From Komagataeibacter intermedius TF2 (GTDB lineage Bacteria > Pseudomonadota > Alphaproteobacteria > Acetobacterales > Acetobacteraceae), in NCBI RefSeq assembly GCF_000964425.1, contig NZ_BANF01000039.1, forward strand, positions 1 to 64,000: 64,000 bases of DNA, given 5' to 3'. The position numbers and the translations under genes are program-made. Under the pieces are notes generated by a model that ran no database searches, was not told the origin of the DNA, and saw only the letters and a list, made by a program, of their open reading frames with translations. Positions 1 to 12,633 of the stretch are shown piece after piece. Each line of letters begins with the position of its first letter. The stretch's first letter is position 1.

Positions 1-77
1 TACTGGTTGATGGCCGTCAGCTCGTTTGTCAGCTGCGTGTTCAGATGTTCGATAACCTTTGGATCCTTGATCGGCAT
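1..77 (-). CDS. bfr: Bacterioferritin, N-terminal fragment (cut by window edge)
   Basis: Only the first 25 codons lie inside the window, reading leftwards. The peptide begins MPIKDPKVIEHLN and continues into the LTNELTAINQY block that opens bacterioferritin helix A, where the Glu of NEL is a ferroxidase ligand in the family. Bacterioferritin stores iron as a 24-subunit haem-containing shell in the cytoplasm. The ATG at 77-75 is supported by a GAGGAA ribosome-binding site eight bases upstream (85-90 read on the minus strand). The fragment is too short to judge haem ligands or intactness. It is divergent from mtnK. Confidence 0.85.
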   Translation of the reverse strand, partial: MPIKDPKVIEHLNTQLTNELTAINQ

Positions 78-219
78 ACCGGCGTTCCTCTTCTGTTATG
101 CTTACGGGTTACTGCGCGGCATCCGTGCGCGCAATTATAAAAAAGCATTGCATAACCGCAGCCTGCGCGCGACCCTGCCGCCCCCCGCAGCACGCGGCGC
201 ATGGCATGAGGAGAGCCGC
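78..219. promoter_or_regulatory. Divergent bfr/mtnK promoter region
   Basis: This 142-bp gap separates two divergent genes and holds an AT-rich island at about 131-145 in otherwise GC-rich DNA. On the minus strand, positions 139-134 read TATAAT, a perfect -10 hexamer 57 bases upstream of the bfr start; I see no convincing -35 partner. On the plus strand the same island offers TATAAA at 136-141 for mtnK. I see no clear Fur or Irr box. Confidence 0.35.
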
Positions 220-1452
220 ATGACCCAGACCCCCTACCACACGCTGGACGCACAGGGCATACGCAGCCTGATCGCGGGCCTGCCGGACGTGGCCACCCGC
301 CTTGGCGGCGCACCCGCGCAATGGCAGGTGCGCGAGGTCAGTGATGGCAACCTCAACAATGTCTTTCTTGTCGGTGGTCCGGTGGGGGAAGTCTGCCTGA
401 AGCAGTCGCTGCCGCATGTGCGCGTGGACCCGTCATGGAAAATGCCGCTGGACCGTACGTTTTTCGAAGCCGCATGGCTGCGCGCGGTCCTGCCGCTGGT
501 GGGTGGACTGACGACGGAATGCCTGTATTTCGACCGTGATCTGTATGTCCTGATTATCGAAAGCCTGTCAGACCATACCGTGCTGCGCACGGCCCTGATG
601 CAGGGGGCGGACTGGCCAGGCGTTGCGCCGCGCATCGGCACCTTCATCGCCCACGCCACGTTTGGCACATCGCTTCTGGCCCGCCCGTTCGAAGAGGTAT
701 TCACCACGCGCCGCACCTTTGCCGCCAACCTCGCCCTGACCCGCATCACGCTGGACCTCGTGCTGGATGACCCGTACCGCGACCATCCGCGCAACCACTG
801 GCATGACCCTGTCCTGACGCCCATCGTGCTGGACATCCGCTCCAGCGCCGCAACGCTGCTGGCGGTTGAAAACCTGCGGCGGCGTTTCCTGTCGCAACCG
901 CAGGCACTGCTGCATGGCGACCTGCATACCGGTTCGATCATGAGCACGGCGGACGATACCCGGGTCATTGATGGGGAATTCGCGATCTACGGTCCCATCG
1001 GGTTCGACTGCGGCATGTTCGTGGGCAATCTGGTACTGCATTATTTCGCGACACCGGACCGGACGGCACGGAAGGCCACCCTGCGCGATATCACGGCATT
1101 CTGGAACAGTTTCCATGAACAGTTCATGGGACTGTGGAACGGAAATGAATCCCCTCCGCCGGGCACGCTGCGCCCGCTGGCCTACGGACCGGCGGCGCAC
1201 GTGGCGCAACAGGCGTTCATGGAGGAAATCATGGGCGACACCATCGGCTTTGCCGGGATCGAGATCATCCGCCGCATCATTGGCTATGCCCACACGGCGG
1301 ATTTCGACACCATAGCCGACCCGCAGCAGCGCGCGACGTGCCGGGCGGGGGCGCTGTCCTTCGCCTATCACGTGCTGGATCACCTGAGCGAGTTCCACGC
1401 CATCAACGATTTCCTGTATTATCTGGATGAGCAGGAATTCGTGGGACTGTAA
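220..1452 (+). CDS. mtnK: S-methyl-5-thioribose kinase
   Basis: This 410-aa protein of the aminoglycoside-phosphotransferase fold phosphorylates methylthioribose to methylthioribose-1-phosphate, a methionine salvage step in the cytoplasm. The catalytic loop LLHGDLHTGSI and the metal-binding segment VIDGEFAIYGPIGFD are diagnostic for MtnK rather than other APH kinases. The frame stays open for 71 codons further upstream, but ATG 220 is chosen because GAGGAG precedes it at 208-213 and gives the usual family length of about 400 aa. No mtnA or other salvage gene is in the window, so the kinase stands alone between bfr and the converging hsdM. A hairpin of the dispersed repeat follows its stop codon. 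Confidence 0.93.
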   Translation: MTQTPYHTLDAQGIRSLIAGLPDVATRLGGAPAQWQVREVSDGNLNNVFLVGGPVGEVCLKQSLPHVRVDPSWKMPLDRTFFEAAWLRAVLPLVGGLTTECLYFDRDLYVLIIESLSDHTVLRTALMQGADWPGVAPRIGTFIAHATFGTSLLARPFEEVFTTRRTFAANLALTRITLDLVLDDPYRDHPRNHWHDPVLTPIVLDIRSSAATLLAVENLRRRFLSQPQALLHGDLHTGSIMSTADDTRVIDGEFAIYGPIGFDCGMFVGNLVLHYFATPDRTARKATLRDITAFWNSFHEQFMGLWNGNESPPPGTLRPLAYGPAAHVAQQAFMEEIMGDTIGFAGIEIIRRIIGYAHTADFDTIADPQQRATCRAGALSFAYHVLDHLSEFHAINDFLYYLDEQEFVGL

Positions 1453-1490
1453 AAAAACGCCGCCTTTTTGAAACAGGGCGGCAACCCGAA
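1453..1490 (+). repeat. Dispersed palindromic repeat, short copy; probable terminator
   Basis: Six bases after the mtnK stop, GCCGCC (1459-1464) pairs with GGCGGC (1477-1482) around a T/A-rich loop. This is the same GCCGCC-TTTTT-AAA-GGCGGC arm seen at 29028-29053 and, as GCTGCC/GGCAGC, at 10213-10236. It lies between the converging mtnK and hsdM and could terminate transcription in both directions. Confidence 0.6.
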
Positions 1491-1519
1491 ACCTCTTATC
1501 CATCTTCATCACTGCACCA

Positions 1520-3184
1520 TTATGGGTCCGCGGTCGGTTCTCCACCGGGCATAAGGGCCACAAGTCGTGCCATTGATCGACGCAGGTCGGCTTCGATCTC
1601 TTGTAACGGCCGAAGCGGAACGGGATGGTGAAAATACCGCGCGAAGGAAATGGCGCAGCCAGTAGCGGTCCGGGTCGTATCCAGCCGGGCATCCGGGTCG
1701 TATGGTCGGATCATCTGGCTGAACCATGCCTGTGGGTCGTGTTCCATCCCCACACGGAATGCGGTCCGCACCGGCGCGCCATCACGGCCGGGACGCGTGA
1801 CCATCAGGCTGCGGTACAGGAATTCCCGCCCCGGCAGAAGACATGAAAACGGGGTCCGACGCATATCCGCCGCCCCGTCCGGCGTGGGCGCGTCATGCGC
1901 CAGCACCTGCCATGCAACGGGTGCGCCATCCGCCCCATCGCGCAGCAGCACATCCATTGCCGCATCGACCGTGCAGGCCCGTAGTACGGCGTCGATATGG
2001 TACGACGTCATCTCGCGCCGTTTTTCCCCCCCACCGGACAGCGCGCGTTGCCACAGCCCCGTCGCGTCAACCAGCCGGACCGTGCCCCTGCGTGCCGCTG
2101 GCCTGTTGTTGTCCAGTATCCACACATAGGTCGCGATACCGGTATTGACGAACATATCTGCAGGCAGGGCGATGACCGCATCAATCAGGTCGTGTTCCAC
2201 CAGATACCGTCGGATGGCGGATTCACCGGAATCCGCGCTACCACCGGTCAATGCCGCCCCGTGTGTCACCACGCCAATACGCGCGCCACCTGCACGCGGG
2301 CTGCGCATATGGGCTACAAGATGCAGCATGAACAGCATGGACCCGTCCGCCACGCGGGGCAGGCCGGGGGCAAAACGTCCGGCATGCCCCTGCGCATGCT
2401 CAGCCTGTATGGCCGCGCGGATATGCCGCCAGTCCAGCCCGAAGGGCGGGTTCGACAGCATGCGGGCGAAACGGCGGCCTGCATGCCCGTCATGGGCCAG
2501 GGTGTCACCACAGACGATCTGCCCCGGTGCGCGTCCGCGCAGCAGCATGTCCGCGCGACACAGGGCACAGGCGCGGTGGCTGATTTCCTGACCGAACAGG
2601 TCAACCGTAATGCCGCGCTGCCGTAACCGGTCCGCAGCCCGTCCCAGCAGCGCGCCCGTCCCGGCAGCGGGATCATACAGGTTGTGCCGCGCACCAGGGC
2701 CATCGGGGGCGAAAACCAGATCCACCATAAGGTCCGTGACCTCCGGCGGGGTGAAATGTGCCCCCGTTCGCCGGGTATCGGCAAAATGATGGACCAGTTC
2801 CTCAAACAGCCGGGCCATTGCCTCGGTGCCATGCCGGGCGGGCGACAGGTCAAGCGCGGTGAAATGCGCCGCCAGTCCCCCCAGCAGGTCCGCGCGCGCC
2901 AGACGACGGGCAAGGGGCATGACCTCCAGCTGCGATATGATATCGCGCACGACTCCAGGCAGACGGTTCGTCAGGCGATCAAGACAGGCCAGCGGGTCAG
3001 GCGCGCGCGCCACGGCATCCAGCCAGCGGGCAGGACGCGCACGCGACAGTTCCAGCCGCCGCAGCATGGTGAATACCAGAATGACCGGCCCGTACTCCGC
3101 CGGTTCCATGCCACCACGCAGCAGGTCGGCCACACGCCAGATGGCGGCAGCCGACAGCAGCGGAGGGGGCCGGGCCTCAGCCAT
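1520..3184 (-). CDS. hsdM: Type I restriction-modification methyltransferase subunit (HsdM-like)
   Basis: This 554-aa N6-adenine DNA methylase has the type I M-subunit layout. The N-terminal helical domain (about 10-130) carries the LRGGMEPAEY block; then come TGAHFTPPEVTDLMV, SAM-binding motif I DPAAGTG (about 171-177), catalytic motif IV SNPPF (about 244-248) and the IRRYLVEHDLIDAVIALP block (about 330). All key residues are present, so it should be active with a specificity subunit. It starts only 9 bases after the AI-2E-family gene and is the last gene of a minus-strand cluster led by hsdS at 6212. No HsdR is visible on either side. It probably methylates a bipartite adenine site in complex with HsdS. 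Confidence 0.88.
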   Translation of the reverse strand: MAEARPPPLLSAAAIWRVADLLRGGMEPAEYGPVILVFTMLRRLELSRARPARWLDAVARAPDPLACLDRLTNRLPGVVRDIISQLEVMPLARRLARADLLGGLAAHFTALDLSPARHGTEAMARLFEELVHHFADTRRTGAHFTPPEVTDLMVDLVFAPDGPGARHNLYDPAAGTGALLGRAADRLRQRGITVDLFGQEISHRACALCRADMLLRGRAPGQIVCGDTLAHDGHAGRRFARMLSNPPFGLDWRHIRAAIQAEHAQGHAGRFAPGLPRVADGSMLFMLHLVAHMRSPRAGGARIGVVTHGAALTGGSADSGESAIRRYLVEHDLIDAVIALPADMFVNTGIATYVWILDNNRPAARRGTVRLVDATGLWQRALSGGGEKRREMTSYHIDAVLRACTVDAAMDVLLRDGADGAPVAWQVLAHDAPTPDGAADMRRTPFSCLLPGREFLYRSLMVTRPGRDGAPVRTAFRVGMEHDPQAWFSQMIRPYDPDARLDTTRTATGCAISFARYFHHPVPLRPLQEIEADLRRSMARLVALMPGGEPTADP

Positions 3185-3193
3185 CTGCCAGCC

Positions 3194-4243
3194 TTAACGC
3201 GCCTGTTCTTCCGCCGCCGCCGTGCGCCATAGCGACAGGGCGACTGCAATGACCGTCGGCCCCATGAACAGCCCCAGCAGACCAAACATGTGCAGTCCCC
3301 CCAGAATGGCCGTCAGCACCGCAAGGAACGGAATGCTGGTGCTGCCACTGATCAGCTTGGGCCGGACGAAATGGTCCCCCGCGCCATAGGCGATCGTCCC
3401 CAGCGCCGCCACGATGACCGCCTGCGTCACGCCATTGGCGGCAAAGGTCATGAGCGTGGTGGCACAGAGCAGGATCGGCCCGCAGAAGGGAATGATGCTG
3501 ACCACCGCCGTCAGCAGCGTCAGCAGGGCAGGGTGAGGGGTGCCCGCAATGAAATAGCCGATCCCCACCAGCACGCCCTGGCCCAGCCCGACCAGCACCA
3601 GCCCCGCGACCGTGCCGCGCACGGCGCCAACGGTGTTGCGCATGACATCACCTGTCCGCTCCCCCAGGAAGCGGCGGCCCACGGCGCGGATATCGCTTAC
3701 CAGCACATGCGACGCAGCAAGGTAGAAATAGACTGACAGGGTGGCGATGACGAAGGTTTCCGTCATGTCCATCACCCGGTGTGGCAGTGCGCGCCCGTCG
3801 CCCGTTGCGAACATGTGCGAGGCCACACTGGTCCAGTGCCGCAGTTCATCCGGGTCGGACAGGTAGCGGCTCCACAATGCCGACAGGCGCGGGCCGATGC
3901 GCGGGATGTCCGCCACCTGCGGCGAGACAGGGATACCATCATGCAACGCCCCGCGCCCCCATGCCAGAAGGGATGGCAGATCCATGCCCGCCCGCACCAC
4001 CATGGCGATCATGGGTACGGCCAGCAGCGCGAATATCCCCGCCGCGATCAGGCCCGCGGCCATGCGGTTGCCCATGCCCCGCCCGACCAGACGGTGGTAC
4101 AGCGGATAGGTCGTGATGCTCAGGATACCGCCCCAGACAAAGGCAAACAGGAAGGACTGTTCGATCCACGCGGAAAACAGCACGACCGCGCATACAAATA
4201 TAAAGGTCCCGATATACTGGGTCCGGCTCCGGTTTTCATCCAT
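3194..4243 (-). CDS. AI-2E family transporter (PerM/UPF0118-like membrane protein)
   Basis: This 349-aa integral membrane protein has paired N-terminal helices (about residues 10-45), a loop of roughly 60-80 residues, and a C-terminal bundle including LVLVGLGQGVLVGIGYFI, the IIPFCGPIL segment and GLLGLFMGPTVIAVA. This is the AI-2E family architecture, whose members export small solutes or exchange ions; the name does not prove AI-2 transport. The start MDENRSR at 4243 is chosen over longer upstream frames because the first helix follows directly and GGAACAG lies upstream. It sits between a GNAT gene and hsdM in the same direction, an unusual neighbour for methylation genes. Confidence 0.85.
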   Translation of the reverse strand: MDENRSRTQYIGTFIFVCAVVLFSAWIEQSFLFAFVWGGILSITTYPLYHRLVGRGMGNRMAAGLIAAGIFALLAVPMIAMVVRAGMDLPSLLAWGRGALHDGIPVSPQVADIPRIGPRLSALWSRYLSDPDELRHWTSVASHMFATGDGRALPHRVMDMTETFVIATLSVYFYLAASHVLVSDIRAVGRRFLGERTGDVMRNTVGAVRGTVAGLVLVGLGQGVLVGIGYFIAGTPHPALLTLLTAVVSIIPFCGPILLCATTLMTFAANGVTQAVIVAALGTIAYGAGDHFVRPKLISGSTSIPFLAVLTAILGGLHMFGLLGLFMGPTVIAVALSLWRTAAAEEQAR

Positions 4244-4421
4244 ATGGTATGATCTGTTCCTGATGTGATGATGATACGTCGTATGGTAACATAACCTGCG
4301 CGACACGGGACCGCGCATTTTCCCGACCCCGTGCATGTCCATGATCGGTGCCGTCCCATGCATGCGCATGGACGGCGCGCCGCACGCTATCGCGCCCGGT
4401 TTAACAACTGCTGAACATATA

Positions 4422-4916
4422 TCAGCGTGCCTGCACGCCCGACAGCAGCCTGCGCATGAAATAGCGCGGAAAGAAAGGCGCCGGGCCATCAAGCTGGCCG
4501 AACACCTCAAACCCCACCTTTTCATAAAAAACCCGTGCCTGAAACGCATAGGTATCAAGCCACATATGGGTGCAGCCCCGCCGGCGGGCTTCGTGTTCAG
4601 CCATCAACACCAGCCTGCGTCCCATCCCGCGCCCGCGCAGGCGGGGGGCCACGGCCAGCATGTCGATATGCATCTCCCCCCAGCGGGACTGCGCCACCAG
4701 CCCGCCCCGGATGGCCCCCGTCACGCGGTCGCGGATCACGATGACAAGGTCATGGCAGTCAATGTATCCCACCACGCCGCATGTGAAATCACGCAGTATG
4801 GACAGCACCGCGTCCTCATCCGCCCGCGTCGGACGCGGCAGGACGGCAATTTCCACATCCATTCCCGAACCGGGGGAGCCGGGCGTGCGGGCGCGACATT
4901 TGTCCGTTGTACTCAT
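4422..4916 (-). CDS. GNAT family N-acetyltransferase
   Basis: This 164-aa protein has the GNAT fold. The acetyl-CoA pyrophosphate loop is the LAVAPRLRGRGMGRRLV block (about residues 88-104), followed by the FYEKVGFEVFG motif (about 132-142) typical of the last strands. The substrate cannot be predicted; small molecules, peptides and protein N-termini are all possible. It begins 21 bases after hsdS and is followed by 178 non-coding bases before the AI-2E-family gene, so it is probably cotranscribed with hsdS. An internal Met at residue 19 (4862) is an alternative start that removes a low-complexity N-terminus. Confidence 0.85.
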   Translation of the reverse strand: MSTTDKCRARTPGSPGSGMDVEIAVLPRPTRADEDAVLSILRDFTCGVVGYIDCHDLVIVIRDRVTGAIRGGLVAQSRWGEMHIDMLAVAPRLRGRGMGRRLVLMAEHEARRRGCTHMWLDTYAFQARVFYEKVGFEVFGQLDGPAPFFPRYFMRRLLSGVQAR

Positions 4917-4937
4917 TCCCGTCCCATTCCACCGTCT

Positions 4938-6212
4938 TCACGTCGCCCGTCCGCTGATATGGGCCTGCCGCAGGGCAGGACGATATTCACACAGCACGGC
5001 GTGCAACCGTTCGCGGGCATACGCCTGACGTGCCTGCCGGTCCAGTATCTCCCACACCTCCTGCGCAACCGCGCGCTGGCGGGGCAGTGGGGGCAGGCAT
5101 AGTTCAAGCGAGGCAAGGGTCCGGGTATCCACTTCGGGAAAGACGCTTCCGCCTGCGCGTCGCCGCAGTTCCGGGGCCGCCACATGCAGCAGCAGGGCGA
5201 GAAAGCGCAGGTCCATGTCCGCTGCGCGCGGCACGAGCGCCTTGCATCCCTGGCTTACGGATACAGGCGCCGCCGTCATGCCCACCCGGCCCACCGGGGC
5301 ACGGGTGGAGATAACCAGCGCGCCCGCTTCCACCACCGTGGCGCGGCAGGCTGCCAGCCCCATCGTGGACAGGCCGCGCGTGCCATGGTCCACCCATGCA
5401 GGCGGCCCGGCAGGCAGGTCGGCAGGCGTCAGCCACGCCACGTCATGTCCCCAGCAGGCCGCGTTGCCCGTGGCGGGCGTGCCGCCGCCCACGATGTCAA
5501 ACACGCTGCCCACGGGCCGGATGGTCCCGCCAGCCGGCACGGGGCCGGGCCATGTCGCGCCATGGGGCAGGGCCGCATGATGGATGGCCGCCTGCGTGTA
5601 TTCGCTGGCCGCCACCGCCTGCATATCCAGTTCATGCATCTGACGGTCGATCCGGTCCATGTGACAGTCCAGCGCCTGTGCAATGGCATGCTGGCGCTGC
5701 AATGGTGGACAGGGTACCAGCAGGCTGTTCATCCGTGCACGGGTCAGTTTGGGGCGGGTCGTGCCGTCCACATACGCAGCATAGGACAGGGTATTGAGCG
5801 CATGCGCCAGAAAACGCCCATCCACCCCTGTCCGCGGACGCAGCACATGCACATGATTGCCCGCCCATAACGGGCCATCATGAAAAAACGCGACATCACG
5901 GACGGAATCGAAAAAGGGAGCGCTATCTTCCCCCAGCAGCACAAGCGGCCCATCAAACAGCGCCCGGTCCACATATCCCGCAACACCACTGGCGCCATGA
6001 TAGGGCACATCGCCCGGACAACGCGCCCGCTGCGCGCGATTGAGCGGCACGCGCCCTGCATCCAGACAGTCCACCAGTGCCCCAAGGGGGACTGCGGGCC
6101 AGCACGATGCATGCATATGCCCCGCAAATCCGCCATCACGCGTCTGCCACGTGCCATCCGCCGGTCCGTCCATGCGGTACGGGTGACGTGAAAAGCATGA
6201 TGTGTCAATCAT
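4938..6212 (-). CDS. hsdS: Type I restriction-modification specificity subunit (HsdS-like)
   Basis: This protein of about 424 aa has two target recognition domains and conserved spacer regions, as in a full-length HsdS. The first TRD contains VPYHGASGVAGYVD, GEDSAPFF and GTTRPKLTRARMNSL before a PPLQRQHAIAQ helix. The second contains GGGTPATGN, WLTPADL, ISTRAPVGRVGM and a closing PPLPRQRAVAQ helix. Each TRD reads half of a bipartite DNA target and the helices set the spacing. The start is placed at MIDTS (6212); MGI three codons earlier (6221) is equally possible. It leads a minus-strand cluster whose last gene is hsdM, separated by two unrelated genes, and it is divergent from a MATE exporter. 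Confidence 0.87.
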   Translation of the reverse strand: MIDTSCFSRHPYRMDGPADGTWQTRDGGFAGHMHASCWPAVPLGALVDCLDAGRVPLNRAQRARCPGDVPYHGASGVAGYVDRALFDGPLVLLGEDSAPFFDSVRDVAFFHDGPLWAGNHVHVLRPRTGVDGRFLAHALNTLSYAAYVDGTTRPKLTRARMNSLLVPCPPLQRQHAIAQALDCHMDRIDRQMHELDMQAVAASEYTQAAIHHAALPHGATWPGPVPAGGTIRPVGSVFDIVGGGTPATGNAACWGHDVAWLTPADLPAGPPAWVDHGTRGLSTMGLAACRATVVEAGALVISTRAPVGRVGMTAAPVSVSQGCKALVPRAADMDLRFLALLLHVAAPELRRRAGGSVFPEVDTRTLASLELCLPPLPRQRAVAQEVWEILDRQARQAYARERLHAVLCEYRPALRQAHISGRAT

Positions 6213-6310
6213 GATCCCCATATGCTGGCGGCATGCGACGGAATGATATAAACCCCCACAGATACCGTACGGCAGACATAACCATGCCGCATGGCTGACA
6301 GTAGGATTGC

Positions 6311-7672
6311 ATGACGCGTTCACCACACGCATTCGGGGCGGAATTCCGCTCCATTCTCGCCATCGCGGGACCGATGGGCCTGTCACAGTTTGTCCAGATG
6401 CTGATGGGCGCGACCGATGACGTGCTGCTGGGGGGGCTGGGCGCATCGGCGCTGGCGATCGGAGGACTGGCGACCAGTTCGTTCTTCACGCTCAATGCCA
6501 TCCTTGCCGCCATGATCGAGGCAGGCGGCATCCTGCTGTCACAGGCGCGTGGGCGGCAGGATCATGCCAGCCTGGGCACCATCATGACATCCATGCTGGC
6601 AGTGGCGGTGGCGCTGTGCGTGCCTGAACTGTTCTGCCTGTGGCATATCGACCGGCTGCTGGCGTGGATGAACGAACCCGAGGCCATCCGCGCGCCCGTC
6701 ATCCATTTCGTCCATATCCTGATGTGGGCCGTGCCGCCCGCGCTGCTGGGACAGGGGATCGTGACCACGGCGCTGCCGGTCATGGGGGCGCAGGGCATCC
6801 TCATGCGCGTCATGCCGTGCATCACGGTGGTCAACGGGGTGCTGAACGCAGCCCTGATCCACGGCTGGTTCGGGCTGCCTGCGCTGGGGCTGTATGGATC
6901 GGCCATCGCTACGGTCACGACATTATGGTGCATGCCGTTCATCATGCTGGCCTTCGTGTCCCGCAGGCCGGACCTGCGCAAGATACTGCGTCCCCGCCCG
7001 CATGACTGGGGACAGACGCTTGCGCTGCTGCGCACCGGCCTGCCAATGCTGGCGGCCGCCATGGCGGAGGTCTCGCTGTTCCAGGCCAACAGCCTTGAGG
7101 CCGCACGCCTTGGCAACAGCGCGCTGGCAGCATTCCAGATCATGCTGGGAATAGGGGTCCAGTGCTTCGTGGTGTACATGGCGCTGGGGCAGGCATGCAA
7201 CATCCGTGTCGGGTACTGGACCGGGCGGGGCGACCCGGCCATGATGCGCCGCGCGGCATGGGCGGCCATGCTGCTGGGCATTGCGGTGGCGGCCGTCATG
7301 ACACTGGGAATGGCGCTGGGGCGGCATGCCATCATCAGCCTCTACCTGAATATGTCGCTGCCGGAAAACACACAGGCGGTCAGCATGGCGCTGGGGCTTC
7401 TGCTGGTGGGGGCGGCATTCCAGATTCCCGATGCAGTGCAGGTCATCACGACCGGCATCCTGCGCGGGCAGGGCGATACGACGGTCCCGATGGTGCTGGC
7501 TGTTATCGGGTACTGGGGCATTGGTTTTCCCAGCGGGGTCTACCTTGCCTTTCACCACGGCATGGGGCCATCGGGACTGTGGTGCGGCAACGGGATCGGC
7601 CTGGTGGCGGTGTTCATGATGCAGGGCACGCGTATCGTGTGGCGCATGCGCCCGCACGGCGCGCGGGGATAA
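6311..7672 (+). CDS. MATE family multidrug/toxin efflux protein
   Basis: This 453-aa protein has about 12 hydrophobic segments in two MATE repeats. The first opens with LAIAGPMGLSQFVQMLMGATDD; the second carries MLAAAMAEVSLFQAN near residue 250 and the family GILRGQGDT motif near 390. MATE pumps export cationic drugs or metabolites in exchange for Na+ or H+ across the inner membrane. The asymmetric pattern is closest to NorM-type proteins. It is divergent from hsdS and converges, with one base between stops, on a small membrane protein gene. The substrate is unknown. Confidence 0.9.
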   Translation: MTRSPHAFGAEFRSILAIAGPMGLSQFVQMLMGATDDVLLGGLGASALAIGGLATSSFFTLNAILAAMIEAGGILLSQARGRQDHASLGTIMTSMLAVAVALCVPELFCLWHIDRLLAWMNEPEAIRAPVIHFVHILMWAVPPALLGQGIVTTALPVMGAQGILMRVMPCITVVNGVLNAALIHGWFGLPALGLYGSAIATVTTLWCMPFIMLAFVSRRPDLRKILRPRPHDWGQTLALLRTGLPMLAAAMAEVSLFQANSLEAARLGNSALAAFQIMLGIGVQCFVVYMALGQACNIRVGYWTGRGDPAMMRRAAWAAMLLGIAVAAVMTLGMALGRHAIISLYLNMSLPENTQAVSMALGLLLVGAAFQIPDAVQVITTGILRGQGDTTVPMVLAVIGYWGIGFPSGVYLAFHHGMGPSGLWCGNGIGLVAVFMMQGTRIVWRMRPHGARG

Positions 7673-7673
7673 G

Positions 7674-8201
7674 CTACAGCCGCTTGTGCATTTCCTCGCG
7701 GATGGAATTGCACTTCTTGGTAAACACGCCCGCCTGCGACGCGGTCATGAAGTTTATCAGGAAGGCGCCCAGCAGCGAGCAGAAGGACAGGATGATCAGC
7801 ACCCGTCCCATCAGCGATATGACCCCGCCGTAATGCTCGGCCGAGTACCACAGCAGCCCGAGGCTGAGCACCGCGCCAAACACGCCCAGCACGCCGGTGG
7901 AACGGATGAGGGATTCCTCCTCCCGGATGAAGGTGGAGGATTCCTGCCATAACAGGAACAGCTTGCGGTCCATTTCCTGCACGGCGGCGGCATATTCCTC
8001 CGCATCATCGGGGTGCTGGTGGTCGGTACCGCTACGGTGCAGTTCCAGTTCCTGCCGGGCCTTGGCAAAGACGCGCCTGCGCTCCTTTATGGCCGGCAGG
8101 CTGATATCGACGAAACTGAGGATGGCGACATTCAGTCCGGCTGACAGCTGGATCACCGCCTGGAAATCACCCCAGATCACAGGTTGTCCCCATCGGGGCA
8201 C
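7674..8201 (-). CDS. Hypothetical membrane protein with coiled-coil segment
   Basis: This 175-aa protein is not recognised. The first 30 residues are hydrophobic enough for one membrane helix. Residues about 35-110 are highly charged and helical (KERRRVFAKARQELELH, then EEYAAAVQEMDRKL), consistent with a coiled coil. Two clear membrane helices follow (TGVLGVFGAVLSLGLLW and LMGRVLIILSFCSLLGAFL), and the protein ends in a basic tail. The layout recalls small 2TM effector or scaffold proteins, but I see no diagnostic motif. It is divergent from the superinfection-immunity-like gene at 8331 across 129 bp. Confidence 0.65.
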   Translation of the reverse strand: MPRWGQPVIWGDFQAVIQLSAGLNVAILSFVDISLPAIKERRRVFAKARQELELHRSGTDHQHPDDAEEYAAAVQEMDRKLFLLWQESSTFIREEESLIRSTGVLGVFGAVLSLGLLWYSAEHYGGVISLMGRVLIILSFCSLLGAFLINFMTASQAGVFTKKCNSIREEMHKRL

Positions 8202-8330
8202 ACATGACTGCGCACTGTAAAAAAAACCCTGACAAATTGGATCCGACCGACATGTTCATGCTGCATGCCGGTGCCCAGCGCGCGATATGATGTGGCGGCA
8301 CGCCTGTATTAAGGGTTAGCATGAAGTGTT

Positions 8331-8654
8331 ATGAATATCCATGTTCCCTCCACTTACGAGGTCTACCGTGGCTGGCAGTCCATACAGGGCACGGGGCTGG
8401 AAATAGGCACGGCTGTCCTTCTGGTCCTGGCCTTCGGACTGGCGGGAAGCATGGTGCTGTTCCTGCTGCCAACGTTCATTGCGTGTCGCCGCGGGGTGCA
8501 TAACGCGGCGGTGGTAGCCGTGGTGAACTGCGCCACGGGCATGACCGGGGTTGGCTGGGTGATTGCGCTGCTCATGGCCTGCATGATGGAAACCGACATA
8601 CAGCGCCATGCCCGCCTGGGCCGGAGCGAACAGACCTTCCCTGGCGTGCCCTAG
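8331..8654 (+). CDS. Superinfection immunity family (T4 Imm-like) small membrane protein
   Basis: This 107-aa protein has two membrane helices: one ending in FLLPTFIACRRG (about residues 44-55) and one containing GMTGVGWVIALLMA (about 70-83). The pattern of a helix ending in LPT-IA, a short charged turn, then N-x-x-x-G-x-T-G-x-GW is the signature of the superinfection immunity protein family, named after phage T4 Imm. Many members are ordinary chromosomal proteins of unknown role, so phage exclusion is only a possibility. No phage genes are nearby. It converges on the GH32 gene. Confidence 0.72.
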   Translation: MNIHVPSTYEVYRGWQSIQGTGLEIGTAVLLVLAFGLAGSMVLFLLPTFIACRRGVHNAAVVAVVNCATGMTGVGWVIALLMACMMETDIQRHARLGRSEQTFPGVP

Positions 8655-8665
8655 CCACCGGTTGG

Positions 8666-10105
8666 TTACGGTTCCGCCGTCAGCCGGTCCGGAGAAATCG
8701 GGGCCATGCGCCGCGCCTGTATGGATGCACTTTCGAACGTACCCTGCGTTTTCAGTACGAACGGCCCCGCAGGGTCGCCATAGGCGCGGGTGCTCAGGCC
8801 AATCCCGCTGGATGCGAAGATTTCGATAACCGAAGCATCAACCAGAATATCAAGGGTGCTGTGGTCAGCCAGGGGCAGGGGGGCCGCATCCCCATTGGCG
8901 ATCAGTTCACGCCCGGGCCGGTAGGGATCGTAATCCAGATCGAGGAAGGCATCCCGACCACCAAAAATGATCCGTCCCGGCGCCTGCCCGGAAAAGGATA
9001 CGCGGATACGGGCATTCGGCCCGTCCGTATGCCCCGTTTCACGCCCGATCCCCTGCATGAAAACCGGCCCTTCCAGCATTGCAATCGCCGGATGGAGGGC
9101 CACCCTGACAAGGCCATCCGCACCTATGGTCATGACGCGGGGCAGGGACATCACCCCGTTCCAGCCCGCCTGCATGGCCGCCTTGGCCCGCCCCGGTTTT
9201 TCAGGAATCCAGCCCCACACCACGCGCCGCCCGTCCGCATCCAGCATGGTCCGCGCGGCATAGAATGACCCATACCCCAACGGCGCAACATGGCGGACGT
9301 GAAACCTGTCCTGCCCGAACGTGCCGACAGCTGCATAAACGGTATCGCCCAGCGAATAGACAAGAACCTGAGAGCTCTCCAGCGCGAAAAAATCCGGACA
9401 CTCCATCGCATCATCATATCCGCCAGCAATATGGGTCGGACCATACAGAACCCTGCGATAGGTCCATGTCAGCAGGTCGGGGCTGTCATACAGCAGCACG
9501 ACACCACCCGGTCCCGCGGGGGAAGCGTGGACATTGGCCCCCAGCACCATGCACCACCGCGCACCGTCCTTCCACACCATCGGATCCCGGAATCCTTCCA
9601 CCTGCAGTCCTTCGGGCGGGGTCGCGATCACGGGTTCAGGGCGGCGCGTCCAGTGCATCATGTCCAGATCGGAGGTGGCCATGCACTGCACGGAAGGCTC
9701 GATCCCGGTATAGAACGCCACCGCCCGCGCACCGTCGATCACCACGCAGCCACTAAACACGCCCTGCGCATCTGGCCCGCCGGGCTGGGGGGCGAGTGCC
9801 GCGGGCAGGTTGCGCCAGTGTACAAGGTCCGTGCTGACCGCATGCCCCCAGTGAATATCGCCAAACGCGGCCTTGTCCGGCCCCCACTGATAAAACATGT
9901 GATAACGCCCCCGTACCCAGACGGGGCCACAGGGATCATTCATCCAGCCATAGGGGGCGATAAGGTGATATTGTGGTCGCAGCGGATCAGCGGCCAGCAC
10001 CAATGCCTGGGGCAGGCGCACCGGCCGCGCTGTTGCCGCGCGCGCGCCGACCCATGGCAGCATGGCGACACCACCCAGAACGGATCGTCGGGAAATGACA
10101 GGCAT
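8666..10105 (-). CDS. Tat-exported GH32 fructan/sucrose hydrolase (levanase or exo-inulinase type)
   Basis: This 479-aa glycoside hydrolase of family 32 hydrolyses beta-fructosides such as levan, inulin or sucrose. The nucleophile lies in WMNDPCG (about residue 54), the transition-state Asp in FRDP (about 170) and the acid/base Glu in MECPDFF (about 235). The C-terminal beta-sandwich contains DILVDASVIEIFAS. The N-terminus SRRSVLGGVAMLP is a Tat signal, so the enzyme should be exported folded. ATG 10105 is chosen because it places this signal at the N-terminus and has GGATG upstream. Cys replaces the more common Asn after NDP. The upstream gap holds a repeat and an IS-derived miniature element, so its promoter region has been remodelled. 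Confidence 0.9.
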   Translation of the reverse strand: MPVISRRSVLGGVAMLPWVGARAATARPVRLPQALVLAADPLRPQYHLIAPYGWMNDPCGPVWVRGRYHMFYQWGPDKAAFGDIHWGHAVSTDLVHWRNLPAALAPQPGGPDAQGVFSGCVVIDGARAVAFYTGIEPSVQCMATSDLDMMHWTRRPEPVIATPPEGLQVEGFRDPMVWKDGARWCMVLGANVHASPAGPGGVVLLYDSPDLLTWTYRRVLYGPTHIAGGYDDAMECPDFFALESSQVLVYSLGDTVYAAVGTFGQDRFHVRHVAPLGYGSFYAARTMLDADGRRVVWGWIPEKPGRAKAAMQAGWNGVMSLPRVMTIGADGLVRVALHPAIAMLEGPVFMQGIGRETGHTDGPNARIRVSFSGQAPGRIIFGGRDAFLDLDYDPYRPGRELIANGDAAPLPLADHSTLDILVDASVIEIFASSGIGLSTRAYGDPAGPFVLKTQGTFESASIQARRMAPISPDRLTAEP

Positions 10106-10207
10106 TGCACATCCAGTACATAACGATACCGTTATTATTATGGAGGCAGGCTGGTGTGACAAGACCATTGCCAACATCAGCCGCCGGGTATTTTCCCACA
10201 AATAAAG

Positions 10208-10247
10208 AAAACGCTGCCTTTTTTAAAAAAGGCAGCATCCAAAAAAT
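10208..10247. repeat. Dispersed palindromic repeat, copy with perfect 24-bp palindrome
   Basis: GCTGCCTTTTTT (10213-10224) is followed directly by its exact reverse complement (10225-10236), a perfect 24-bp palindrome in an intergenic region. The flanks AAAAC on the left and ATCCAAAAAATTT on the right resemble the flanks of the copy at 29020-29098. It lies just left of the miniature element. Confidence 0.65.
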
Positions 10248-10261
10248 TTACAATTTTATCA

Positions 10262-10448
10262 GGGACTGTTGGGAATTATGTTTTCTGAAGCGCCATGGGG
10301 TGATTCAAGGTCCATATGGATCGCTTCATACTGACGGACGCCCATTCGATGGGAGTCCTGTGCAGGGCGACAGGACAGATGGGTCATTTGCGGCCATGAC
10401 CCATCTCACAGCCGCAAGCAACAGTTCACGATAATTCCCAACAGGCCC
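10262..10448. mobile_element. 187-bp IS-derived miniature element (MITE-like)
   Basis: The element is bounded by 18-bp inverted repeats with one mismatch: GGGACTGTTGGGAATTAT at 10262-10279 and the reverse complement of GGGCCTGTTGGGAATTAT at 10431-10448. Both ends are flanked by the dinucleotide CA, a possible 2-bp target duplication. From 10316 a truncated frame reads MDRFILTDAH, which resembles from memory the N-terminus of IS5-family transposases in acetic acid bacteria; it stops after 27 codons at 10399. No transposase gene remains, so it could move only with help from a full-length relative. It lies between the GH32 and serA genes. Confidence 0.7.
10316..10399 (+). pseudogene. Remnant of IS transposase N-terminus
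   Basis: A 27-codon frame inside the miniature element begins MDRFILTDAH and then diverges. After a one-base shift another frame reads RWESCAGRQDRW, consistent with a frameshifted and internally deleted transposase. It cannot encode a functional enzyme. Assignment to the IS5 family rests on remembered similarity to transposases that begin MDRFILTDAQW. Confidence 0.45.
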
Positions 10449-10460
10449 CAATAGCTTATT

Positions 10461-11726
10461 TTACTGCTGCTTGTACAGCAGGCGGGCGCGGAGGGTGCCC
10501 TTCAGTTCACGCAGGCGGTCAAGGATACGGTTGTCCTTTTCCACGTCGCGGCCCGTATCGGCCTCGACAACGACATAACCCAGTTCACCCGCCGTCTGCA
10601 GGTACTGCGCGGTGATGTTGCAGGCTTCGGATGAGAAGATCTCGTTGATCTGCAGCATGATGCCCGGCACGTTTTTATGCACATGCATGAAACGTGTCCC
10701 GTGCGGATTTTCCGGCAGCTGCACGGTGGGGAAGTTGACCGCGCCCAGCGTGGAGCCAACGTCGGAATATTCTACCAGCTTGCGCGCCACTTCCACGCCA
10801 ATACGTTCCTGCGCTTCCGCCGTGGAACCGCCGATATGCGGGGTCAGGATCACGTTGTCCAGACCACGCAGCGGGGTCTGGAATTCCTCGCCTGCCGCCT
10901 TCGGTTCCTTGGGGAACACATCAATCGCGGCACCCAGCAGGTGGCCGTCCTTCAGCGCGGCAGCCAGTGCATCCAGATCCACCACGTTGCCACGGGCGTT
11001 GTTGATCAGGAACGAACCCTTCTTCATTGCACGGATCTGGGCTTCGCCAATCATGCCAGCCGTTTCCGGCGTCTGGGGCACGTGCAGGCTGACCACGTCG
11101 CTCTGCGCCAGCAGGGTTTCCAGCGTATCGACCGGCGTTGCATTGCCATGCACCAGCTTGTCGATCACGTCGTAATAGAACACGCGCATGCCGAAGGCTT
11201 CGGCCAGGACGGACAGCTGTGAGCCGATGGAGCCATAGCCCACGATACCCAGCGTCTTGCCACGCACTTCCCAGCTGTTGGTGGCGGACTTCTTCCAGAT
11301 CCCGGCGTTGCATTCCTCCGACTTGGGGAAGATGCGGCGCATCAGCATTACGATTTCGCCCATGACCAGTTCGGCAACGGAACGCGTATTGCTGTATGGT
11401 GCGTTAAAAACAGGAATACCGCCTTCACGCGCGGCGTTCAGGTCCACCTGGTTGGTGCCGATGCAGAAGCAGCCGATGGCGATCAGGCGATCAGCCTTTT
11501 CGATCACCTCACGCGTCAGCTGCGTGCGCGAACGGATGCCAACGATATGCACGCCTTCCAGCGCCTTCTGCAGGGCATCGCCCTCCAGCGCCGTTTTCAG
11601 GCGGGTGACGTTTTCGTATCCGTTGTCCTTCAGCAGCTTTACGGCACTGTCATGGATGCCTTCAAGCAGGAGGATACGGATCTTGTCCTTGGGCAGGGAA
11701 AGATGTCCGTTGGGTTGGCTGGTCAT
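10461..11726 (-). CDS. serA: D-3-phosphoglycerate dehydrogenase
   Basis: This 421-aa enzyme oxidises 3-phosphoglycerate to phosphohydroxypyruvate, the first step of serine synthesis. The N-terminal substrate domain includes GIRSRTQL. The Rossmann loop is GYGSIGSQ (about residue 163) followed by an acidic residue in YYD. NNARGNVVD and the TPHIGGST block carrying the catalytic His follow. An ACT domain (about 345-421, from FMHVHKNVPGIM) should bind serine for feedback inhibition. The length matches the short E. coli-type SerA rather than the 520-aa type. It lies 91 bases after hisN in the same direction; a small CCCCC-GCTA-GGGGG hairpin at 11786-11799 sits in the gap. Confidence 0.95.
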   Translation of the reverse strand: MTSQPNGHLSLPKDKIRILLLEGIHDSAVKLLKDNGYENVTRLKTALEGDALQKALEGVHIVGIRSRTQLTREVIEKADRLIAIGCFCIGTNQVDLNAAREGGIPVFNAPYSNTRSVAELVMGEIVMLMRRIFPKSEECNAGIWKKSATNSWEVRGKTLGIVGYGSIGSQLSVLAEAFGMRVFYYDVIDKLVHGNATPVDTLETLLAQSDVVSLHVPQTPETAGMIGEAQIRAMKKGSFLINNARGNVVDLDALAAALKDGHLLGAAIDVFPKEPKAAGEEFQTPLRGLDNVILTPHIGGSTAEAQERIGVEVARKLVEYSDVGSTLGAVNFPTVQLPENPHGTRFMHVHKNVPGIMLQINEIFSSEACNITAQYLQTAGELGYVVVEADTGRDVEKDNRILDRLRELKGTLRARLLYKQQ

Positions 11727-11817
11727 GTCGCGTGCTCCCGCTTCTTTACGGTCAAGATGGGTCCGTCCCTATCCGATTGCCCGTGCCCCCGCTAGGGGGA
11801 AAGATCATTTACCGCCG

Positions 11818-12633
11818 TTACTTTATGGCAATGCCACGCGACAGCAGCCCCGTCACACGGGGCAGCAGGGCGCCGTCCCCCACCGCCAGGACCGTGCCAT
11901 CGCCATCAGCGCGAAGTGGTCGGCCCGACCAGTCGGTCATGCGGCCGCCAGCCCCTTCCACCACGGGCACAAGTGCCGCCCAGTCCCATATCTTCATGGT
12001 GCATTCTGCAACAATGTCGATCTGCCCCAGCGCCAGCAGGCCATAGGCATAACAGTCGCCGCCCCAGCTTGTCCGCCTGACGGCGGCGGCCAGCGCGTCA
12101 AAACCGGGCCGGTGCGGCGGGTCAAGGATTTCGGGCGCGGTGCATGACAGTTCTGCATGCCCTACATCGGCGCATGCGCGCGTGACGGGCGTACCGGGCA
12201 GGGCGGACATGTACCGCGTGGCCTCGCCACGCAGTCCGATCCACCGTTCCCCTGTCACGGGCTGGTCAATCACGCCAAGCACCGGAACATTGTCGTGCAG
12301 CAGGGCGATCAGCGTGCCAAAGGTCGGTCGCCCGGTCAGGAAGGCCCGCGTGCCATCCACCGGGTCCACCACCCAGCGATACGGACTTTCGCCGCGTTCC
12401 AGCCCGAATTCCTCCCCCATCACGCCAAAACCGGGCAGGCGTTCGGACAGCACGGCCCGAATCGCGCGCTCCGCCGTACGGTCGGCTATGGTGACGGGAC
12501 TGGAATCGCTTTTTTCATCCGCGCGGACACCACGACGGAAAAAGGGCAGCACCACGGTGCGCGCCACGTCGGCCGCAGCCATCGCCGCCTCCAGCACCGC
12601 ATCGCGCGGAAAGGCTGCTGGCAGGGTGGTCAT
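11818..12633 (-). CDS. hisN: Histidinol-phosphatase, inositol-monophosphatase family
   Basis: This 271-aa Mg2+-dependent phosphatase of the inositol monophosphatase fold probably removes phosphate from histidinol phosphate in histidine synthesis. Metal ligands lie in GEEFG (about residue 74), the VVDPVDGTRAF motif (about 88-98) and WDWAALVPVVEGAGG (about 215). The hisN name follows the alphaproteobacterial family; a general inositol or sugar phosphatase cannot be excluded. Its ATG overlaps the cytochrome c stop by one base (TAATG), which suggests translational coupling. serA follows downstream. Confidence 0.83.
   Translation of the reverse strand: MTTLPAAFPRDAVLEAAMAAADVARTVVLPFFRRGVRADEKSDSSPVTIADRTAERAIRAVLSERLPGFGVMGEEFGLERGESPYRWVVDPVDGTRAFLTGRPTFGTLIALLHDNVPVLGVIDQPVTGERWIGLRGEATRYMSALPGTPVTRACADVGHAELSCTAPEILDPPHRPGFDALAAAVRRTSWGGDCYAYGLLALGQIDIVAECTMKIWDWAALVPVVEGAGGRMTDWSGRPLRADGDGTVLAVGDGALLPRVTGLLSRGIAIK

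Follow-up and report, generated by a model that had tools for sequence, protein, structure and literature searches.

A putative genus-core type I DNA methyltransferase without a restriction partner in Komagataeibacter

Gene organization of the hsd locus

The window analyzed here is a stretch of 64,000 nucleotides from Komagataeibacter intermedius TF2 (contig NZ_BANF01000039.1, positions 1 to 64,000), a member of a genus used industrially for vinegar and bacterial cellulose; the assembly comprises 3.88 Mb in 943 contigs. Near its beginning lie hsdM and hsdS, which encode the two subunits of a putative type I DNA methyltransferase. This enzyme is probably a restriction-less (orphan) methyltransferase belonging to the core of the genus. 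The hsdM gene (positions 1520..3184, minus strand) encodes a compact modification subunit of 554 aa that matches N6_Mtase (E=1.9e-44) and HsdM_N (E=3.7e-6). The specificity gene hsdS (4938..6116, minus strand) encodes 392 aa with two Methylase_S stretches (E=1.4e-26) and two target recognition domains (TRDs). With borders drawn by eye, and numbered on an open reading frame (ORF) starting at 6446, TRD1 covers residues 117–250 (5697..6098, minus strand) and TRD2 residues 303–448 (5103..5540, minus strand). Two further genes stand between them on the same strand, namely an AI-2E family (YdiK-like) membrane protein (3194..4243, 349 aa; PF01594, E=5.8e-28) and, in the interval between hsdS and AI-2E, a lineage-specific GNAT acetyltransferase (4422..4916, 164 aa; PF00583, E=4.2e-14). 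The gaps are 9 bp from AI-2E to hsdM, 21 bp from hsdS to GNAT, and 178 bp from GNAT to AI-2E. The one-strand order hsdS, GNAT, AI-2E, hsdM, proposed in a first-pass annotation of this DNA, is borne out by the ORFs and family matches.

The locus is framed by two conserved neighbors. The gene mtnK (methylthioribose kinase; 7..1452, plus strand, for the ORF as listed, whose real start is probably downstream) scores 364 bits against TIGR01767, with a cut-off of 275, and converges on hsdM. On the other side, a MATE family transporter gene, identified by a family match (6311..7672, plus strand), diverges from hsdS. ORFs and family scans of the window revealed no hsdR between mtnK and MATE, in agreement with the earlier statement that no restriction gene accompanies the pair. 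The genes and strands given at first also stand, but the HsdS start at 6212 probably does not. The ATG at 6116 (MHASCWP..., 392 aa) is the most plausible start, because orthologues in the alignments begin a few residues before a conserved W-P-x-x-P-L-G and the longer ORF runs antisense to the start of MATE. A promoter scan of positions 1300–6500 found no sites, against 1.4 expected, and the same region contains five terminator-like sites, against 2.7 expected (standard deviation 1.5). Rfam gave no match within positions 1–12000.

Both subunits have the anatomy of a type I methyltransferase: HsdM carries an S-adenosylmethionine (SAM) motif and a catalytic motif, and HsdS contains two TRDs and two linkers. 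The first reading of the two proteins as intact holds, given DPAAGTG and SNPPF in HsdM and the two Methylase_S stretches in HsdS. Among the aligned HsdM proteins of the genus, DPA(A/V)GTG and NPPFG are each present in 17 of 17 (G151 was left out owing to an N in its frame). HsdM matches the PADLOC type I methyltransferase model PDLC03029 with 439.6 bits, the type I S model matches HsdS at 131 bits, and a phmmer search paired HsdS with the solved S subunit 1yf2 (E=2.6e-25). Matches to the MADS defense models mad2 (HsdM, 71 bits) and mad5 (HsdS, 86 bits) were outscored by these type I models. The MAD2 NCBIfam model reached only 27.4 bits against 720, which does not point to a MADS system, although no genome-wide search for partner genes was made.

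Compared with canonical HsdM proteins of the family, the orphan HsdM is missing approximately 33 residues beyond about residue 50, and its C-terminal loops are shorter. In a midpoint-rooted tree, which also took in two distant relatives from metagenome-assembled genomes (L138 and L139), the stem of the orphan clade measures 0.90 substitutions per site with a support of 92. The HsdM from a Propionibacterium metagenome-assembled genome (L139:8001-9884), 33% identical, falls with the orphan clade in this midpoint-rooted tree.

Conservation and inheritance across the genus

The genus was sampled with 19 Komagataeibacter genomes, one per species. HsdM orthologues with 64–92% identity were found in 18 of them, and in all 18 loci the order hsdM, AI-2E, hsdS, MATE is identical. 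The closest record is that of K. oboediens LMG 18849, whose HsdM is 92% identical to the window protein, compared with 62–82% for six other Komagataeibacter records. The gene mtnK was seen in 17 of 18 loci and a gene for a 175-aa protein beyond MATE in 16 of 18, the remaining loci stopping at contig edges. The HsdS frame is open in 18 of 18 and the HsdM frame in 17 of 18. In the exception, K. europaeus (G151), a frameshift in hsdM was considered and rejected, as the interruption sits at an ambiguous assembly base N. The gene order is therefore not confined to one strain, as had been left to a survey of related genomes, but only hsdS, AI-2E, and hsdM occur genus-wide, with GNAT in 6 of 18 loci.

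Outside the genus, in a family sample of 150 genomes from 102 genera, the best long HsdM matches are 41–45% identical and come from open frames of 618–667 aa; shorter stretches reach 47%, and an N-terminal piece of 37–41 residues up to 65%. A search by the 175-aa gene and mtnK for an ancestral empty site found no syntenic locus in related genera. Blow et al. regard an orphan methyltransferase as conserved, in the part of their paper that defines the class (PMC4752239), when it occurs without a cognate nuclease in at least 50% of the species of a genus. The present pair occurs in 18 of 19 species genomes.

Gene trees were compared with an rpoB tree. rpoB was taken from all 19 genomes, and 16 species were used for the comparison, after exclusion of G151 (for its hsdM), G163 (for the stop in its AI-2E gene), and G155. 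Of 13 splits, 9 in the hsdM tree and likewise 9 in the hsdS tree agree with rpoB, and neither tree shows a strongly supported conflict; for a concatenated hsdM and hsdS tree, shuffled labels share 0.28 splits on average and 3 at most. The AI-2E tree has 8 of 13 splits in common with rpoB and one strong conflict. In 15 chosen pairs, dN/dS is 0.16–0.24 for hsdM, 0.18–0.33 for hsdS, 0.06–0.19 for AI-2E, and 0.09–0.27 for MATE. Mean pairwise protein identities are 69% for HsdM, 71% for HsdS, 89% for AI-2E, 80% for MATE, 81% for mtnK, and 95% for the 175-aa protein. The substitution ratios and identities together indicate constraint on both subunits, which nevertheless evolve more quickly than their neighbors. 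Collectively, the gene comparisons indicate that hsdM and hsdS are inherited vertically since the Komagataeibacter ancestor and are under purifying selection.

The specificity of type I systems usually turns over fast. Among the 153 pairs of the 18 orphan HsdS proteins, TRD1 has a mean identity of 84.5% (lowest 79%) and TRD2 of 75.2% (lowest 64%), while the linkers are less conserved (central 48.7%, distal 55.1%), and TRD1 exceeds even the catalytic region of HsdM (76%). The control set comprised 18 accessory HsdS proteins from the genus, of which 17 were taken together with their restriction subunit (R). In the seven accessory pairs whose R proteins are more than 50% identical (actually 88–97%), the S proteins are only 33–72% identical, with a median of 41%. 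In 30-residue windows, both TRDs diverge in five of these pairs and one TRD diverges in two, while a window in the center is 87–100% identical in six and identity climbs from 57% to 93% there in the seventh. For four orphan pairs examined in the same windows, the lowest central window of three is 30–37% identical, and that of the fourth, whose members are closely related, is 67%. The orphan HsdS is thus the mirror image of the accessory HsdS. Since its TRDs are more conserved than its linkers and accessory systems show the opposite, the specificity looks frozen across the genus, as would be expected of a domesticated methyltransferase that marks its own DNA rather than defends it. Each orphan locus has a single hsdS, judged from PF01420 matches, and no TRD exchange was seen among the 18 species loci, so at the level of these species comparisons the locus does not resemble a phase-variable type I system.

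Within the accessory set, the systems L171, L180, and L184 (from G154, G165, and G152, respectively) have R proteins that are 95–97% identical and S proteins that are 33–38% identical. This suggests between-species spread with a change in specificity.

The only species without the pair, G155, is placed inside the clade of G135 and G164 in the rpoB tree. It retains AI-2E (85% identical), MATE, mtnK, and the 175-aa gene, and of hsdS and hsdM only short remnants persist, produced by separate deletions on either side of AI-2E. These gene contents indicate that hsdS and hsdM were lost together in the G155 lineage and AI-2E was kept. The remnants bear further small changes in this one genome, which represents one strain, and look like the outcome of natural decay.

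Restriction partners, embedded genes, and alternative explanations

The first-pass annotation had raised the possibility of an hsdR elsewhere in the genome. One is indeed present, on contig C929, but it lies beside its own hsdM and hsdS in an M-S-R system whose HsdM is 42% identical to the orphan HsdM, and pairing in trans is judged unlikely. The window genome also encodes a 380-aa HSDR_N protein on C917 (L006:1327-2469, plus strand) without a helicase match in Pfam. In six further genomes of the genus, HSDR_N matches fall in frames of 381–392 aa. The type I R helicase domain PF18766 scores over its cut-off in 15 of the 19 genomes, at 19 R loci, and 18 of these have an HsdS match within approximately 4 kb on the same contig (in G151, only a piece of 143 aa). 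The remaining locus, G156:C18, lies on a 4.7-kb contig without an HsdS match. In the Pfam scan of the 19 genomes, PF18766 was not found in G135, G155, G162, or G164; HSDR_N was not found in G162 and occurs only as a short frame of 387–392 aa in G135, G155, and G164. Three of these, G135, G162, and G164, are near-complete and keep the orphan pair, and neither a type I R helicase nor any other HsdS match was found in them. The R search used two Pfam models on partly draft genomes, which an R of another kind would escape. With no hsdR between mtnK and MATE in the window and no PF18766 in these three genomes, the pair does not have the makeup of a complete type I restriction-modification system, which includes a cognate HsdR.

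The two embedded genes follow a different pattern. GNAT is present in six of the 18 loci (G000, G156, G161, G150, G159, and G151), which form one clade on the rpoB tree. The hsdS/AI-2E interval is 97–218 bp in G060, G153, G152, G160, and G157 and 254 bp in G162 (that of G158 was not measured); G164 has shorter ORFs there, and G135 and G165 carry an ORF on the opposite strand, as G163 and G154 probably also do, judged from reverse-strand ORFs of similar length. This opposite-strand ORF, 176 aa long at L038:8674-9204 (minus strand) in one clade and with similar ORFs in L067, L068, and L071, has phosphoesterase-like signatures but only a sub-threshold Pfam match (E=0.01). A further genus of the family (g73), sampled with two genomes, has in both an AI-2E orthologue that is 62% identical and stands beside other genes; no hsd, MATE, or mtnK match was found there within the 20 kb covered. 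Inspection of 16 loci by eye placed a plausible start of hsdM no more than approximately 20 bp from the stop codon of AI-2E, the distance in the window being 9 bp. Expression of hsdM is therefore likely to rely on read-through from AI-2E, a relation of position and not of shared function. In G163, the AI-2E gene (L067:10841-11977, minus strand) has one in-frame stop near its middle; no such stop was seen in the other 18 genomes of the genus.

The most probable explanation of these observations is an orphan type I methyltransferase fixed in the core of the genus. HsdS and two copies of HsdM would assemble into an M2S1 complex, with the products of the separated genes acting together in trans, and in these species the complex would place N6-methyladenine (m6A) at a single, unchanging bipartite motif. 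The methyl group may then serve as a lasting mark, used in regulating genes or in some other chromosomal function that depends on methylation, and not as a shield from a cognate nuclease. The split order would date from the placement of hsdS and hsdM on either side of an AI-2E gene. Read-through from AI-2E probably drives hsdM, and hsdS is probably transcribed from a promoter close to MATE. The domesticated, restriction-less methyltransferase put forward in the first-pass annotation is thereby well supported by its presence in 18 of 19 species, vertical inheritance, purifying selection, frozen TRDs, and the fact that no type I R helicase was found in three of the 18 genomes, whereas the coupling to the embedded genes proposed with it is not. 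Somewhat less securely, but still on balance favored, the enzyme may act as a core epigenetic writer of the whole genus, like Dam or CcrM, with selection having kept both half-site specificities fixed since the genus ancestor while the linkers drifted. All Komagataeibacter species with the locus would then share one bipartite m6A mark, and G155 would be a natural null.

Several observations weigh against the orphan methyltransferase. HsdM stays under the TIGR00497 cut-off (91.2 versus 242.75 bits), a comparison in which no canonical HsdM of the genus was scored as a control. HsdM and HsdS (69% and 71%) evolve faster than their neighbors (80–95%), although some of the neighbors are no more constrained, as the dN/dS of MATE illustrates. 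One species has lost the pair, so the function is dispensable there, and 15 of the 18 pair-carrying genomes, including that of the window, also encode an accessory type I R, which might in principle associate with the orphan M2S1.

In one alternative, the pair provides the modification function of a type I restriction system, and its HsdR comes in trans from another locus. The hsdR on C929, with an HsdM related to the orphan one beside it, speaks for this, but it has M and S subunits of its own, nearly all R loci of the genus have an HsdS match nearby, three near-complete genomes keep the pair and yielded no type I R helicase, and R genes are patchy where the orphan pair is not; we regard this explanation as improbable. 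Equally improbable is that the pair is a relic, catalytically inactive or in decay, that persists by chance or because it binds DNA as a complex. Such a relic would agree with the faster evolution, the long stem branch, and the loss in G155, but the catalytic motifs are kept, dN/dS is well below 1, the frames are open in all 18 loci apart from one assembly N, and the TRDs are the most conserved parts of HsdS. Still less credible is a four-gene functional unit, in which GNAT and AI-2E would act with the methyltransferase, for example through acetylation or transport tied to methylation. The single strand, the short gaps, the hsdS/AI-2E/hsdM order in every locus, and the closeness of the hsdM start to the AI-2E stop speak for it; it is rejected on the restriction of GNAT to a third of the loci, the survival of AI-2E after the joint loss of hsdS and hsdM in G155, and its existence apart from hsd genes in g73, which mostly refute it.

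The main rival is molecular immunization, in which the orphan methyltransferase shields the chromosome from type I systems that invade with the same specificity (anti-addiction) and has no regulatory role. Frozen specificity and dispensability would both fit this explanation, and many Komagataeibacter genomes carry accessory type I systems, with 19 R loci in 15 of 19 genomes. Systems with similar TRDs were not found among plasmid, phage, and viral sequences or among the accessory systems of the genus. All 392 plasmid HsdS matches are less than 60% identical, the best 15 of 392 being at 22–30%; eight phage records reach only 26–34%; and the accessory HsdS proteins of the genus are only 19–34% identical to that of the window. 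Two peptide patterns confirmed no similar-TRD system in viral contigs, chromosomes of other bacteria not having been searched with HsdS. The lack of a close TRD match in plasmids, phages, and viral contigs weakens immunization, which we consider unlikely, albeit less so than the other alternatives.

Comparison with known systems and neighboring genes

Type I methyltransferases are nearly always accompanied by their nuclease, according to the passages of Blow et al. on this class (PMC4752239). The closest precedent for the Komagataeibacter pair is found in Mycobacterium tuberculosis, where HsdM (Rv2756c) and HsdS (Rv2761c), without a functional HsdR, are called orphan, with renaming to MamC/MamS proposed, in the sections of PMC7591249 that treat them. 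The hsdM and hsdS genes of that system are likewise non-adjacent, as the locus numbers indicate. The same sections describe an additional hsdS fragment and report an inactive allele in H37Rv. Unlike MamC/MamS, the Komagataeibacter pair flanks an AI-2E gene, is genus-wide with frozen TRDs, and is so far a predicted methyltransferase. Orphan type II methyltransferases, including Dam, CcrM, and the families of Blow et al. (2016), also lack a cognate nuclease, are often genus-wide, and have a proposed regulatory role (PMC4752239), but they are type II enzymes with short motifs. Complete type I restriction-modification systems of the Acetobacteraceae, such as that on C929, have an HsdM 40–45% identical over most of its length and an HsdS with two TRDs; they differ in having M and S beside R, an HsdM of 618–667 aa in the best matches, a patchy distribution, and fast TRD turnover. 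The orphan type I class thus exists but is uncommon, and the genus-wide fixation and the reversed profile of TRDs and linkers seem to be new.

Gene expression was not measurably affected by three type I systems of Escherichia coli, as stated in the portion of PMC8287963 concerned with them, which cautions against taking a regulatory role of the Komagataeibacter enzyme for granted. Among the matches listed in a search of the open-access literature on Komagataeibacter methylomes or DNA methyltransferases, no paper on this locus was present, and the sections of PMC6158711 and PMC6471742 that bear on the subject held nothing decisive. A type I enzyme that is present across a genus with frozen TRDs but no restriction partner would offer a clean test of what such methylation does on its own. 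The prediction is sharp, namely a single motif common to 18 species, and a natural loss lineage is at hand.

Beyond the MATE gene lies the gene for the 175-aa protein (window:7674-8201, minus strand), which is without a Pfam or NCBIfam match. Its mean identity of 95% is the highest among the seven genes compared. A second paralogue is encoded in the same genome (G000:C844), and two other genera of the family have relatives of it.

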